This document shows, piece by piece, positions 31,199-36,301 of a stretch of 64,000 nt of DNA. A program made the position numbers and the translations under genes. Each line of letters begins with the position of its first letter. The first letter of the stretch is position 1. Under the pieces are notes generated by a model. The model searched no databases. It had not been told where the DNA came from and worked only from the letters and a program-made list of their open reading frames with translations. Source of the stretch: Actinosynnema sp. ALI-1.44 (GTDB lineage Bacteria; Actinomycetota; Actinomycetes; Mycobacteriales; Pseudonocardiaceae); NCBI RefSeq assembly GCF_001984155.1, contig NZ_MTQO01000040.1:62001-126000 (forward strand). Direction: 5' to 3'.

Positions 31199-32548
31199 GT
31201 GAATACTGTCATCACGGGCGCTTACATCGCGACAGTCGACGGGCACGACACGGAACACGCCGACGGTTATCTGGCCATTGTGGACGGGCGGATCGCCGCG
31301 GTCGGGTCCGGTGCCGTGCCCGCCGAGTACGCGGACCTCAATCGGGTCGACGCGTCCGGATGCCTGGTCACACCGGGTTTGGTGAACACGCACCACCACC
31401 TCTACCAATGGGCCACGCGGGGTTACGCCCAACAAGAGGACCTGTTCGGCTGGTTGACCGCGCTCTACCCGGTGTGGGCCGGGATCGACGCGGACATCGT
31501 GGCGGCGACCTCCGCCGCCGGGCTGGGCATGCTGGCGTTGTCCGGCTGCACGACCGCGGCCGACCACCACTACGTCTTCCCCCGTGACGGCGGGGACGTC
31601 TTCGGGGCGTTGGTCGACGCCGGGCGGCGGATCGGGATCCGGCTGCACGCCGTGCGCGGCTCGATGGACCGCGGCGAGTCCGACGGCGGTCTGCCGCCGG
31701 ACTCCATCGTGGAGACGACATCCGCCGCGCTCGAGCACACCGAGCAGGCGATCGGCGAGTACCACGACCCCGCGCCGGACGCGAGGATCCAGGTCGCCGT
31801 CGGCCCGTGTTCGCCCTTCTCGGCCAGCCTCGACCTGATGCGCGGAGCCGCCGAGATCGCGCGCCGGCACGGTGTCCGGCTGCACACGCACCTCGCCGAG
31901 ACCAAGGACGAGCAGGAGCAGTGCCAGCGGGAATTCGGCAAGACCCCGGTCGAGTACGCCGAAAGCCTAGGCTGGCTGGGCGACGACGTGTGGCTGGCGC
32001 ACGGCGTGCACCTCGACGGCGACGAGATCCCGTTGATGGCGAGGACAGGCACCGGAATCGCGCACTGCCCGAGCTCGAACGCCCGGGTGGCCGCCGGAAT
32101 GGCACCGGTCAGGGCGCTGCTGGACGCCGGTGCGCCCGTCGGGCTGGGAGTCGACGGGGTGGCGTCCAACGAGTCCGGGGGACTGGCCGAAGAACTGCGT
32201 CAAGCGTTGCTGACCGCACGGCAGCGTGGCGGGGCGGACTCGTTGACCGCGCGGCAGGCCTTGCGGATCGGCACCATCGGCGGCGCCCGCTGCCTGGGAC
32301 GTCAGGACCACATCGGCTCGATCGAACCGGGCAAGCAGGCCGACCTCGCGGTGTGGCGGCTGGACACGCTCGCCCACGCGGGAATCGTGGACCCGGTCGC
32401 CGCGCTGGTGTTCGGGCGTGTGCCGCCGCTGGAACTGTTGCTCGTCGGCGGTGAGCAGGTGGTCGAGAACAACCGCCTGCTCACCGCCGACGAACCAACC
32501 CTCACCCAGGCCCTACAAACCGCCTGCTCAAGACTTGTGAGTGGTTAG
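31199..32548 (+). CDS. 8-oxoguanine deaminase (amidohydrolase superfamily)
   Basis: The 449-residue protein has metal ligands in TPGLVNTHHHLYQWATRG (about 58-75), the histidine of HTHLAETKDEQEQC (about 225-238), a later histidine in WLAHGVHLD, and the aspartate in GLGVDGVASNESG (about 317-329). The HHHLYQ sequence and length fit the 8-oxoguanine deaminase branch of the ATZ/TRZ amidohydrolases, which convert 8-oxoguanine to urate and ammonia. GTG 31199 starts 11 nt after the LLM gene with a weak ribosome site. A chlorohydrolase-like alternative substrate cannot be excluded. Its stop codon lies inside a terminator hairpin. Confidence 0.85.
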   Translation: MNTVITGAYIATVDGHDTEHADGYLAIVDGRIAAVGSGAVPAEYADLNRVDASGCLVTPGLVNTHHHLYQWATRGYAQQEDLFGWLTALYPVWAGIDADIVAATSAAGLGMLALSGCTTAADHHYVFPRDGGDVFGALVDAGRRIGIRLHAVRGSMDRGESDGGLPPDSIVETTSAALEHTEQAIGEYHDPAPDARIQVAVGPCSPFSASLDLMRGAAEIARRHGVRLHTHLAETKDEQEQCQREFGKTPVEYAESLGWLGDDVWLAHGVHLDGDEIPLMARTGTGIAHCPSSNARVAAGMAPVRALLDAGAPVGLGVDGVASNESGGLAEELRQALLTARQRGGADSLTARQALRIGTIGGARCLGRQDHIGSIEPGKQADLAVWRLDTLAHAGIVDPVAALVFGRVPPLELLLVGGEQVVENNRLLTADEPTLTQALQTACSRLVSG

Positions 32549-32584
32549 AACCCAAGCGGTTCTAACCGGACTGAACACTCACGA
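32535..32584. terminator. Bidirectional GTGAGTG-family hairpin between convergent genes
   Basis: Inner arms GGTTAGAACC (32543-32552) and GGTTCTAACC (32558-32567) pair perfectly. Outer TTGTGAGTG pairs with CACTCACGA (32576-32584) after an 8-nt bulge. The deaminase TAG stop (32546-32548) is within the stem, and the rsr stop is 4 nt beyond. Confidence 0.75.
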
Positions 32585-32587
32585 GGT

Positions 32588-34156
32588 TCAGAAGGGCCAA
32601 TCGGCGTTTCTCGCGGCTTCGAGCAACGGGATCATGCGGAACGTCGCGTCCGTCAGTCCACCGAACTCGTGCCGGTTGTCCGCTCCCGTCGCGTACGCCG
32701 CTGGGGCGTACCCGCCGAGGTTGAACCCGTAGATCGGGACGTTCCTCTTGACGGCCTCGGAGACGTCACCCTGGATCGTCTGCATGTCCGAGATGATGAA
32801 CACTCGATCATGCCTGCGGTAGGAACTCCGCAACGCTCCAGCGATGTCTGTGCCGTGTCCGACCTCGCCGATGCGACGCAGGAACCGCTCGACCTCCCGC
32901 AGGATCGATCCGCCCTTGCGGATCTTGTGGTGGAACGTGCCGCTGGCGAAGCCGACGACGTCGACATCCTCGCCCTTGGCGCCGAGCGCGACACCGAACA
33001 CCGCCGCCGCCTTCGCCGGGGTGACGCTGGACCGCTTGGAGTAGCCCACGCTGGTCATCGACGCCGAAGTGTCGATGAGGATCAGCGAACGCCCAGGCAA
33101 CGACGGCAGGTTGCGGAGCGAAGCGCGCAATGCGTCGTCCAATGCCTTGCCCCACCGGAGGTTGGGCGCGGACTCGTACGCCGACAGGAACCGGAACGGG
33201 AACTGCCTGGACTTCGCCACCTGCTCGGGGTCGGCCAACCGCGCCGCCACCTTCGCGGCGACCTCGTCCGACACGCCCGCCTCGTCGAAGTTCCGCAGGT
33301 TACGCAGCAAAGCCATGTAACCCATCGACGGGATGTTCGCCTCCCACAGCCGCGCCTTGTCCACCTTGGACCCTAACTGGGACAGGGTGTCCTCCCACGT
33401 CATGCCCGCGTCACGCAGCGCGTCCGCCTCGACGAACGTCACCGGGGTATCGGCCTGTGACATCCCGGCCCGCAGCGCGGCATTGGCGTTGAGCACACGC
33501 AGCGATTCCGGGATCGGGTTGTCACGCTTGTGCCGACGGTCGAGCGCGTGCGTGAACAGCGCGCCCTGCCATTCCTGCTTCGTCTTGGGGTGCACGAGGT
33601 CGATGACGTCCGCGAACCGGAATCCCTTGGAGTCGGTGTCGTACTTCACCAGCGAGCGCTCGTTGTACAGGCGCAGCACGGCATCCGCCACGCCACGCTT
33701 GACCGGCTTCGGGATCGTCCTGCTGTACTTCGACGTCCAGTACGCGAGCATCTCGCCCGGCTCGTCCGCGCGTCGCAGTACCGAACCGACGACCTGTCGT
33801 GACATGCCGTCGAGGTTCGCATCGAGTCGCGCCTTGGTGAACTCCGCGGCGCCGACGAGGGAAGCGGACCGCATGTTCGCCTCCGAACGCAGCCACGCCA
33901 GCAGTCGCGCCGTCCACTCTGGATCCGCGATCGTCGCGCGCCTGACCAGGGTCGCGTAACGGTCGTCGCGGTCGTCCGCCGACTCGTAGAACGTCTTCTC
34001 GCCGACCATGTTGGAGACAGCGAGAAGGAACAGCGCGGACTTCACGTCGCGCTCGTAGCCCGAGCCGCCCTCGAACGTGCGCGTCGACGGCTTCTTCTTC
34101 GTGGTGACAGGGGAATGGGCCTGGGGCTTCGTCGCGGACGTGTTGAACTTGGACAC
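32588..34156 (-). CDS. rsr: Ro60 orthologue Rsr, TROVE and von Willebrand A domain RNA-binding protein
   Basis: The 522-residue protein has an N-terminal TROVE (HEAT-repeat ring) domain, about residues 25-340, including FYESADDRDDRYATLVR and QEWQGALFTHALDRRHKR, and a C-terminal von Willebrand A domain with a complete MIDAS start IDTSASM (DxSxS, about 365) and later GTD and SD residues. Ro60 proteins are rings that bind misfolded RNA ends and Y RNAs; bacterial Rsr couples to PNPase for structured RNA decay, mostly under stress. GTG 34156 is preceded by GAGG. A tRNA-like RNA is encoded on the same strand directly upstream, as expected for rsr loci. Confidence 0.93.
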   Translation of the reverse strand: MSKFNTSATKPQAHSPVTTKKKPSTRTFEGGSGYERDVKSALFLLAVSNMVGEKTFYESADDRDDRYATLVRRATIADPEWTARLLAWLRSEANMRSASLVGAAEFTKARLDANLDGMSRQVVGSVLRRADEPGEMLAYWTSKYSRTIPKPVKRGVADAVLRLYNERSLVKYDTDSKGFRFADVIDLVHPKTKQEWQGALFTHALDRRHKRDNPIPESLRVLNANAALRAGMSQADTPVTFVEADALRDAGMTWEDTLSQLGSKVDKARLWEANIPSMGYMALLRNLRNFDEAGVSDEVAAKVAARLADPEQVAKSRQFPFRFLSAYESAPNLRWGKALDDALRASLRNLPSLPGRSLILIDTSASMTSVGYSKRSSVTPAKAAAVFGVALGAKGEDVDVVGFASGTFHHKIRKGGSILREVERFLRRIGEVGHGTDIAGALRSSYRRHDRVFIISDMQTIQGDVSEAVKRNVPIYGFNLGGYAPAAYATGADNRHEFGGLTDATFRMIPLLEAARNADWPF

Positions 34157-34205
34157 GATGGACCTCGGTGTTCACGAGGGAGTGCACACGAAAACCGGAT
34201 GTGGG

Positions 34206-34325
34206 CCCGAGATCGAACTCGGGGACAGTACAAGCTGCTCTGTCCATCTGAGCTACGACGGCACGAGAGCCGTCGGCGGGACTCGAACCCGCGACCCGCC
34301 CATTATCAGTGGAAGTAACCGTTCC
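34206..34325 (-). ncRNA. Candidate Y RNA (YrlA type) with permuted tRNA-like module
   Basis: Read on the minus strand, this segment carries tRNA parts in circularly permuted order. An anticodon-arm-like stem-loop (34314-34298, loop CTGATAA) leads through GGGTC into a canonical T arm, GCGGGTTCGAGTCCCGC (34292-34276). Then come an acceptor strand CGACGGC (34275-34269), a 6-nt loop, the complementary acceptor strand GCCGTCG (34262-34256), TA, and a D arm GCTCAGATGGACAGAGC (34253-34237). A final hairpin at 34223-34206 contains GTTCGAT. The acceptor stem is closed by a loop, so this cannot be an ordinary tRNA gene. A tRNA mimic near rsr is what is known for bacterial YrlA RNAs. Exact ends and the Rsr-binding stem are not resolved. 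Confidence 0.65.
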
Positions 34326-34417
34326 CTTCGCACCGGGCACCACATCTGGAGTTGTGACTCCCGAGATCAGATCGCCCGCGGTTGTGGATTCGTTTCGAGC
34401 GAAGGAACTGCGGGCTT
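34326..34417 (-). other. Second structured non-coding segment upstream of the Y RNA candidate
   Basis: No gene fits here. GCCCGCGGTT near 34374 pairs with AACTGCGGGC ending at 34415 with one mismatch. A smaller stem GGAGT-CACA-ACTCC lies at 34348-34361 (minus strand). The 12-mer CTTCGCACCGGG occurs at 34326-34337 and again at 34415-34426, suggesting a duplicated unit. It may be a leader of the Y RNA transcript or a second, diverged Y RNA. Confidence 0.4.
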
Positions 34418-34460
34418 CGCACCGGGAGATGCTGGCGTGAGCCTAACAACTCCCGGTGCG
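34418..34460. terminator. 11-bp hairpin terminator of the acyl-CoA ligase gene
   Basis: CGCACCGGGAG (34418-34428) pairs perfectly with CTCCCGGTGCG (34450-34460) around a 21-nt loop, 15 nt beyond the minus-strand ligase stop at 34475. Confidence 0.65.
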
Positions 34461-34474
34461 CGTGATCCACCGAT

Positions 34475-36301
34475 TTACTGGTACAGCGACTCGATCGCGG
34501 CGGAGTACCGGTCGGTGATCACCCGGCGCTTGAGCTTCAGCGTCGGCGTCACCTCGCCGGATTCCGGCGTCCACGTCTGCGGCAGGACCGTGTATTTCTT
34601 GATCTGTTCGACGTTGGCCAGCACCGAGTTGGCCTCCTGCACGAGCTTCTCGATCTCCTGGAGCACAGCGGGCTGCTCGGCCAGGTTCTCGGTGGGAATT
34701 CCCCTTGCCTGCGCCCAGAGCGGCGCGGCTTCGTCGTCCAGCACGATCAACGCGGTGACGAACGGCCGCCTGTCACCGATCGCGACCGCCTGGCTGATCA
34801 GGGGATGCGCCCGCAGCAGTCCCTCGACCTTGGCAGGCGCGATGTTCTTGCCGCCGGAGGTGATGATGAGTTCCTTCTTGCGGTCGGTGATGTAGACGTA
34901 CCCGTCCTCGTCGATCCGGCCGACGTCACCGGTGGCGTACCAGCCGTCCTCGTCCACGTCCGGCTTGATCGAGCCGTCCGGCTGCAAGTACCCCATGAAC
35001 ACCATCGGCCCGCGGACAAGCAGCTCGTTGTCCTCGCCGAGCTTGACCTCGATACCCGGCAACGGCGCGCCGACCGAGCCGACCCGGTAGCGGTCCGGGA
35101 GGTTCTCGGTCACCGCGCCGGTGGTCTCGCTCAGGCCCCACAGCTCGTACACGCGGATGCCGAGGCTGGCGAGGAAGTCCAACACCGATGTCGGAATGGG
35201 CGCGGCGCCGCTGTTGCCGCCCCGGTGCATCTGGTCGAGGCCCAGCATCGTCCTGATGGGCAGCAAGGCTTTCTCGTCAAGCGCCTTGGCTCGTGCGGCA
35301 AGGTCCTCCGGCACGGGTTTGCCCTCGCTGCCCAGCCGCCACACCTCCGACGCGGCGTCCCTCGCCATCTGCACGCCGGCGCGTTGTTCCTCAGGCAAGG
35401 CGCCAAGACCGCCCTGCATCGCGGCGGTCATCTTCTCCCAGACCCGCGGCACACCGAACAAGCCGAACGGCCGGACACCGTGCAAGGCCGAAACGAGCTG
35501 GGTGTGGTCAGGCACCGCGGTCACGTGCGCGGCCGCGTACACCGGCATGTAGATCCCGAGCACGCGTTCGGCGATGTGCGCCAACGGCAAGTACGCGACA
35601 GACCTGCCGAACATCGGCAGCGGGTGCACGAGGTCCACCGAAGCCATCTCGGACAACACGTTGCGGTGGCTGATCACGACGCCCTTGGGGTCACCGGTGG
35701 TCCCGGACGTGTAGATCATGCACACCGGCTGGTCCTGCGTGATCGCGTCGGTGAGCCGTTCGAAGGCCTCGGGGTCCGCGGCGTGCTTCGCCGTGCCCTT
35801 CTCGAAGACCTCCCGGTACGACACGTAGCGGTCGTCGCCGTCGGGGATCGCGGATTCGTCGATCACCACGACCTTGCGCAGATCCGGCAGGCTGTCCAGA
35901 ACAGGAGCCCAGCGAGAGATCTCGCCCGCGCCCTCGACGACCACGACCGGCGCGGCGCTGTGCTTGGCGACGAAAGCGATCTGTTCACTGGACAACGTGT
36001 CGTACGCCGTGCACGAGACCGCACTGAGGTGCATCGCGCCGAGGTCGACGATCCAGTGTTCCGGTCGGCGTGACGCCATGATCAGCATCCGGTCCCCGGA
36101 ACCGAGCCCGAGCTCCGCAAGTCCGTGCGCCAGCGCGGCGACCTGTTCGCGGAACTGGGCCCACGTCAGCGTGGTGACCTCGCCGGGACTCCACCCCTTG
36201 CTCAACGCCGGTTTGTCTCCGAACTCGGTCGCGTTCCGCCGCATGATGGTCGCGATCGTCTGGCCATGGATAGCGCGCTCTACCTCGTCGGCTCTGCCCA
36301 C
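34475..36301 (-). CDS. Long-chain fatty acid-CoA ligase, FadD15-like
   Basis: GTG 36301 has GGAG 6 nt upstream. The 608-residue adenylating enzyme has the P-loop MIYTSGTTGDPKGVV (about 193-207), the A5 region YELWGLSETTG (about 383-393), the ATP-ribose aspartate in YATGDVGRIDEDGYV (about 452-466) and the C-terminal lysine region near PTLKLKRR (about 587-594). It activates fatty acids to acyl-AMP and then acyl-CoA in the cytosol. Length and the AHIAERVLG segment fit the AMP-forming FadD15 group. It supplies acyl-CoA for the surrounding lipid genes such as the wax ester synthase, but no operon partner is fused to it. Confidence 0.92.
   Translation of the reverse strand: MGRADEVERAIHGQTIATIMRRNATEFGDKPALSKGWSPGEVTTLTWAQFREQVAALAHGLAELGLGSGDRMLIMASRRPEHWIVDLGAMHLSAVSCTAYDTLSSEQIAFVAKHSAAPVVVVEGAGEISRWAPVLDSLPDLRKVVVIDESAIPDGDDRYVSYREVFEKGTAKHAADPEAFERLTDAITQDQPVCMIYTSGTTGDPKGVVISHRNVLSEMASVDLVHPLPMFGRSVAYLPLAHIAERVLGIYMPVYAAAHVTAVPDHTQLVSALHGVRPFGLFGVPRVWEKMTAAMQGGLGALPEEQRAGVQMARDAASEVWRLGSEGKPVPEDLAARAKALDEKALLPIRTMLGLDQMHRGGNSGAAPIPTSVLDFLASLGIRVYELWGLSETTGAVTENLPDRYRVGSVGAPLPGIEVKLGEDNELLVRGPMVFMGYLQPDGSIKPDVDEDGWYATGDVGRIDEDGYVYITDRKKELIITSGGKNIAPAKVEGLLRAHPLISQAVAIGDRRPFVTALIVLDDEAAPLWAQARGIPTENLAEQPAVLQEIEKLVQEANSVLANVEQIKKYTVLPQTWTPESGEVTPTLKLKRRVITDRYSAAIESLYQ

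Follow-up and report, generated by a model that had tools for sequence, protein, structure and literature searches.

The DNA analysed here (the window) is a stretch of 64,000 nucleotides from Actinosynnema sp. ALI-1.44, and the locus under study lies on its minus strand. It consists of rsr, which encodes an orthologue of Ro60, and of two Y RNA genes that precede it in the same direction (Table 1). The first is a minimal Y RNA (A); the second, directly downstream and having the basal motif and core in common with it, is a YrlA-type Y RNA (B) that carries a permuted tRNA-like module, and the end of its model (34195) is separated from the rsr start codon (34156) by 38 nt. The Rsr protein matched TROVE chains in the PDB with E 1.7e-23 and the Ro sixty-related protein Rsr (2nvo) with E 3.9e-5, and its VWA_2 match (E 1.5e-5, 26 bits) lay just under the Pfam cut-off of 27. 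An earlier sequence-only reading had placed a putative Y RNA beside a Ro60 orthologue and in the same direction, and the TROVE match bears out this location.

A promoter-like -10 element may stand just upstream of Y RNA A. TANNNT occurred 34 times at -14 to -5 from the start of the first Y RNA model in 45 loci, against a background of 0.05 per position; these are 45 of 56 sources, the other 11 being omitted as repeats or because their first units were distant or unclear. Around the element lies a perfect 11-bp inverted repeat, CGCACCGGGAG (34450-34460) and CTCCCGGTGCG (34418-34428), which differs by one base in one arm in genome G002 and is possibly an operator or a competing hairpin.

Table 1. 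Coordinates of the features of the rsr locus in the window
Feature	Position	Strand	Basis
rsr, Ro60 orthologue, 522 aa, TROVE + VWA-like	32588-34156	-	Pfam TROVE E 2e-20
Hairpin over rsr Shine-Dalgarno (SD) sequence	34163-34179	-	SD mean pairing probability 0.98
YrlA-type Y RNA (B), whole	34195-34347	-	RF02553 38.9 bits, E 6.4e-7; R1 142.9 bits; fold z -3.67
Basal (predicted Rsr-binding) stem, 3' strand CGGGCCCACATC	34198-34209	-	fold and A1 alignment
Inner stem, 3' strand CTGTCCCC	34221-34228	-	A1 alignment
D arm	34237-34253	-	sequence
Positions 8-9 (TA)	34254-34255	-	sequence
Acceptor 5' strand GCCGTCG, 7/7 pairs with 3' strand	34256-34262	-	sequence
6-nt loop TCTCGT joining acceptor strands	34263-34268	-	sequence
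Acceptor 3' strand CGACGGC	34269-34275	-	sequence
T arm, 5/5 pairs	34276-34292	-	sequence
Variable loop GGGTC	34293-34297	-	sequence
Anticodon arm, loop CTGATAA, anticodon GAT	34298-34314	-	spacing, loop letters, covariation
Inner stem, 5' strand GGGAACGG	34319-34326	-	A1 alignment columns 23-30
Basal (predicted Rsr-binding) stem, 5' strand GATGTGGTGCCCG	34334-34346	-	fold and A1 alignment
Minimal Y RNA (A), without tRNA module: basal stem, conserved internal loop, inner stem, loop	34349-34436	-	A2; R2 74.7 bits
-10 promoter-like element TAGGCT	34440-34445	-	TANNNT enrichment

Identity of the RNAs upstream of rsr

Twenty-five relatives of the Rsr protein were fetched, and the regions upstream of their rsr genes were compared for conserved units. 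Units were listed by regular expression, with the pairings in three loci (L011, L016 and L027) set by hand before alignment. The resulting alignment A1, comprising 27 B-type units upstream of rsr and including that of the window, yielded 33 consensus pairs, of which 21 showed compensatory changes; the basal stem (5 of 8 pairs) and the inner stem, whose consensus pairing is interrupted by a single mismatch, are both among them. The fold of Y RNA B also beat all of 200 dinucleotide shuffles. The minus-strand order given by the sequence-only reading, of anticodon-like arm, T arm, acceptor 3' strand, 6-nt loop, fully paired acceptor 5' strand, TA and D arm is present in every element. The interval it had given, 34206-34325, cut off both ends of the RNA as delimited by the A1 structure and the R1 span, and what it had read at 34206-34223 as a TTCGAT "hairpin" forms the basal stem's 3' strand in the consensus structure. 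For Y RNA A, an alignment of 24 minimal units (A2) gave 19 pairs with compensatory change in 11; its support is comparative, since the fold of the window copy itself is unconvincing (z -1.40, equalled by 17 of 200 shuffles). Alignments A1 and A2 served to build the covariance models R1 and R2, with the window sequences among the training rows, so that the window scores of 142.9 and 74.7 bits are not independent; the second-best place for R1 in the whole genome scored 35.1 bits.

With the Rfam YrlA model RF02553, the search suggested by the sequence-only reading gave a match at 34234-34299 of the minus strand (38.9 bits, E 6.4e-7 with 801 bases searched), and genome-wide this site ranked first of 10 places (E 2.2e-6), though under the gathering score of 69. 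None of the loci of 19 relatives (L009-L027) had an Rfam match at the gathering score either. YrlA of Salmonella Typhimurium (RF02553; PDB 6CU1) resembles the window RNA in its basal stem of paired ends and in the permuted arrangement of T arm, acceptor and D arm. The Rfam consensus passes from the inner stem through 4 unpaired nucleotides to the T arm, whereas the window RNA has a 17-nt anticodon arm and a 5-nt variable loop there. Weak YrlA matches (E up to 10) were obtained in 13 of 14 control genomes, none above the cut-off, and such matches alone therefore carry little meaning. The seven places ranked next (L002-L008) included six with tRNA genes by ARAGORN, five of them with at least two, while L007 had none, which marks tRNA clusters as the main source of false positives for the model.

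This last observation bears on the notion that the module is a relic of tandem tRNAs, formed where the T half of a tRNA adjoins the D half of its neighbour and without Y RNA function. Such clusters are the commonest other matches of the YrlA model in the genome, and the module may well have originated in this way. As an account of the present RNA, the relic is very improbable: the module sits between covarying basal and inner stems beside rsr, a corresponding RNA occurs in 50 of 54 genomes with TROVE, and ARAGORN found no tRNA gene in the window. RF00005, the tRNA model, scored 15.8 bits at the RNA, under its threshold of 29, in line with the earlier statement that the element cannot make a normal tRNA. 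There was likewise no tmRNA model match in the window at the gathering score, nor at E 10 in 33800-34600, that would indicate a permuted tmRNA. Weak Rfam matches near the site, including mir-217, CRISPR-DR28 and GlsR4, were taken as chance.

Salmonella YrlB is not known to carry a tRNA module and in this resembles RNA A. The Salmonella operon rsr-yrlBA-rtcBA has tandem Y RNA genes next to rsr, according to the available text of PMC7790460, and the window similarly has two tandem Y RNA genes adjoining rsr; unlike in Salmonella, they stand before it. RtcA and RtcB were absent among the five neighbouring window proteins scanned. The Ro60/Rsr neighbour, the basal stem pairing the ends, the permuted T, acceptor and D arms, the RF02553 match, the covarying stems and the co-occurrence with TROVE described below (50/53 and 50/54) together support the assignment of 34195-34347 as a bacterial Y RNA of YrlA type in the wide sense, as the sequence-only reading had surmised, with binding to Rsr and polynucleotide phosphorylase (PNPase) putative.

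Y RNA arrays, the rsr leader and probable mobility of the cassette

Counting R1 or R2 matches upstream of rsr at E up to 0.1, Y RNAs were found in 25 of 25 genome loci and at least two in 23, the numbers per locus being one in two loci, two in eleven, three in ten and four in two; 24 of these loci, all except L009, had also fed the models. Among viral-contig loci, which lie outside model training except for L034, L042 and L048 (repeats of genome loci), 29 of 30 had at least one Y RNA upstream and 28 had two or more, the maximum being seven in L035; the one exception, L039, has only 2 upstream bases. A full-length R1 match was present upstream of a Ro-like gene in 10 of 11 phage loci (GiJojo, BRock, Alone3, Quantum, Kela, VanLee, Neville, Frankenweenie, pSt2308 and Dandelion), and in phage Atuin it lay downstream. 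Y RNAs had been found bioinformatically in diverse bacteria and mycobacteriophages, as the available text of PMC12282133 states, citing Chen 2014.

Several annotated phage tRNA genes overlap Y RNA matches: in GiJojo (L149 2269-2343), Alone3 (L151 2274-2347), VanLee (L155 2204-2275), Frankenweenie (L157 2245-2335), Kikimora (L165 2314-2388) and CcrColossus (L160 1655-1722), the Y RNA match of the last being weak (E 0.009). The accessible part of the VanLee genome announcement counts one tRNA, and the sole tRNA in the stretch fetched is the one overlapping the Y RNA. Brevundimonas phage Kikimora also has a permuted tmRNA match (RF04321, L165 5905-6110, 50.1 bits against a gathering score of 47) about 2 kb from its TROVE gene.

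Between Y RNA B and rsr, a predicted hairpin may mask the SD sequence. An SD was recognised in 43 of 54 rsr leaders, and its pairing exceeded 0.8 in 22 of these 43, compared with 17 of 120 control ORFs (Mann-Whitney P 5e-6); three loci in the test repeat others. This hairpin after the array, together with the terminator-like T run that follows it in L012, L028, L040, L041 and L055, would fit a leader or attenuator, in which the structured region controls translation or termination of rsr and no free small RNAs are made. We consider this improbable as a full explanation: the tRNA-like conservation and the arrays of up to seven units exceed what a leader needs, and in L009 some 1.6 kb separate rsr from the end of the array upstream of it. 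Leader and Y RNA roles can coexist.

Among 394 genomes of the class, R1 (E up to 1e-8) was found in 53 and TROVE in 54, with both in 50. The three genomes with R1 alone (G199, G255 and G299) have partial matches (model positions 36/39-119) that are probably tandem tRNAs, and four have TROVE without an R1 match (G068, G227, G395 and G410). In 60 relatives, R1 and TROVE were each found in seven genomes and together in six; G041 has a partial R1 match (model 56-114) and no TROVE, and in G033 TROVE is found in a frame of 342 aa, with no R1. Stricter filters were used for these genome sets, by which weak matches are lost.

The window cassette lies between an AMP-binding gene (34475-36301) and an amidohydrolase gene (31199-32548). 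In G001, of the same genus, this site is empty and holds just a terminator-like hairpin; G002 has the window cassette at the same site, and G005 has its cassette elsewhere, with an Rsr identical to that of Actinocrispum wychmicini DSM 45934. In G003, G004, G006 and G007 (L115-L118), genomes with no TROVE match, the site is 6-9 kb wide. By these sequence comparisons, the interval 32548-34475 is a variable insertion site. In a tree of 59 Rsr proteins, from which rows under 480 aa, truncated proteins and duplicate loci were omitted, the well-supported branches need at least five changes of phage label and at least six of genome label; the bootstrap was not settled, and the tree is used just to show the interleaving of phage and chromosomal proteins. 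From these label changes we infer that cassettes have passed repeatedly between phages and chromosomes.

The anticodon arm of the permuted tRNA module

In the window, the arm TTCCA-CTGATAA-TGGGC forms four of five pairs with one mismatch. Because it stands five bases before the T arm, the tRNA-like module seems to amount to an entire tRNA in circularly permuted form, with its opening between the D and anticodon arms. The sequence-only reading had let the Rsr stem leave from the anticodon position; the basal/inner stem does exist, but it leaves between the D arm and the retained anticodon arm and does not replace the arm. RF00005, far under its threshold, puts the same anticodon at this arm. 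Unlike a tRNA, the module as encoded cannot form the normal structure; when un-permuted, it is called tRNA-Ile(gat) by ARAGORN, which supports the tRNA body only, since modules with shuffled arms also pass (19 of 20). Applied to 77 unmodified units outside the model, ARAGORN reported a tRNA in 12, with an anticodon matching the arm in 9.

A canonical arm was defined as a 5-bp stem with at least four pairs and a loop [CT]T-NNN-[AG]-N, and its distance to the T arm was scanned. In a first set of 62 R1 matches with a T arm, which includes the model-building sequences, 27 had a canonical arm at exactly five bases and no other offset (-5 to 44) had more than five. This set derives from 64 of 69 R1 rows of at least 65.4 bits, from which two L051 rows without a T arm were dropped; the rows left out of the 64 are repeats of L009, L016 and L020 (L034, two rows, L042 and L048) and L030 2730-2855. 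In sets outside the model, the arm stood at spacing 5 in 12 of 46 units from genomes and phages (next best 6, at spacing 4) and in 10 of 31 from viral contigs (next best 3). The 46 units come from 63 of 64 rows of at least 67.3 bits (L110, identical to L010, being dropped) after a 90% filter, and the 31 from 37 rows outside R1 training, where L051 (two rows) and L035 2487 lack a usable T arm; as the filter was run per set, L156 and L057, one sequence, are counted twice. Under a common 90% filter, 77 units outside the model, including L030 2730, which is without the arm, gave 22 at spacing 5, 8 at spacing 4 and at most 4 at any other spacing (-5 to 30). Spacings of 4 and 5 are both normal variable-loop lengths of class I tRNAs.

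Whether the arm is selected can be weighed from these counts. It could be a hairpin to which the conserved core motif TACTTC gives rise, or a decaying remnant of an ancestral tRNA: at spacing 5 the stem has at most three pairs in 41 of 77 units, the TTC of the stem is part of the core motif present also in minimal Y RNAs, the Rfam consensus has only its 4 nt at this position, ARAGORN accepts shuffled arms as noted above, and an 80% identity filter lowers the peak, leaving 10 of 58 units at spacing 5 and 7 at spacing 4, with at most 3 elsewhere. We judge an unselected arm somewhat unlikely, because the matches concentrate at 5 and 4 nt, the short variable-loop lengths that are commonest, and the loop letters are tRNA-like even in units chosen without regard to the loop. 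Among the 36 of 77 units picked on at least four stem pairs alone, U33 was found in 32, A or G at position 37 in 33, A38 in 34 and C or T at position 32 in 26; the 80% filter keeps these letters in 18, 19, 20 and 14 of 22, respectively. The covariation score of the arm stem, computed on 78 rows (77 distinct, window included), was 0.407, compared with 0.236 +/- 0.024 for shuffled alignments (0 of 500 as high) and 0.20-0.29 (at most 0.289) when the stem was slid. Of the canonical loops, 17 of 22 had U36 followed by AA (7 of 10 under the 80% filter); the binomial P of 8e-7 against 16/61 is too small, as it treats related sequences as independent. The retained anticodon arm is thus supported as a structure by spacing, loop letters and covariation.

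Seven non-actinobacterial phage loci served as an outgroup that was expected to be without the anticodon arm. Three (L163, L164 and L166) had no YrlA match at E 0.01, and the remaining four gave 8 matches, of which two had a canonical arm at spacing 5 (L161 Usaquen and L165 Kikimora), a third had five of five pairs with a non-canonical loop, and a fourth had four of five pairs with a canonical loop at spacing 4. Since these phage Y RNAs carry arms, the anticodon arm is not an actinobacterial invention. Partial tRNA modules, with a T arm and a degenerate or unrecognised D arm, were seen in the middle units of L023, L026, L029 and L030 and in L126, L140, L141 and L145, some of them with a 4-nt variable loop.

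Proposed function and meaning

Taken together, the locus is very probably a mobile cassette of two Y RNA genes and rsr, in which the tRNA-mimic Y RNA acts with Rsr, as judged from sequence and by analogy with known Y RNAs. Some points weigh against this explanation: the RF02553 gathering score is missed by the window RNA and by L009-L027, the fold of the minimal RNA by itself is not clearly superior to those of its shuffles, the training rows of R1 and R2 include the window, 4 of 54 TROVE genomes lack an RNA match, and 3 of 53 RNA genomes, with partial matches, lack TROVE. The promoter would lie just before the first Y RNA, and both Y RNAs and rsr would be transcribed from it in one direction. 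The basal stem of either RNA would bind the Rsr ring, as its conservation and the characterised bacterial Y RNAs suggest. The tRNA-mimic RNA would present the permuted tRNA, opened between the D and anticodon arms and with a short loop closing its acceptor end, as an effector module that may be modified by tRNA enzymes and dock Rsr onto PNPase, thereby steering the decay of structured RNA. The available text of PMC8394870 describes YrlA in such terms: a basal stem that tethers Rsr, and a tRNA-like domain with D, T and acceptor arms that is modified by DusA and TruB and binds PNPase. The circular permutation of YrlA relative to tRNA has also been published, as the accessible text of PMC11472068 indicates.

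A further-reaching possibility, which we advance tentatively and consider unlikely, is that actinobacterial and phage Y RNAs form a class with a complete permuted tRNA whose anticodon arm is a working mimic. With Rsr, such RNAs could serve as decoys or sensors for anticodon-loop enzymes, e.g., host anticodon nucleases; they would be mostly of the NNU (ANN-codon) type with U33 and A37-A38, and arrays with different loops could cover several targets. The available text of PMC7790460 contains the proposal that the YrlA domain is a competitive inhibitor of an anticodon nuclease, together with the result that this nuclease does not use Salmonella YrlA as a substrate, and that of PMC10264068 discusses anticodon nucleases in anti-phage defence.

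In the available descriptions, the tRNA mimicry of Y RNAs is known and is given as D, T and acceptor arms; in the open-access texts searched, as far as these extend, a Y RNA with an anticodon arm is not reported, and an earlier description is possible. Searched at the gathering score, RF02553 overlooks those actinobacterial members that were examined, and some tRNA genes annotated in phages coincide with Y RNAs. If an anticodon arm is retained with canonical loop letters, the tRNA mimicry of the Y RNA would be complete. For the relatives of Ro60, a human autoimmune protein whose bacterial relative is Rsr, Y RNAs engaging anticodon-loop enzymes would link Ro60 biology with tRNA repair and phage-host conflict.
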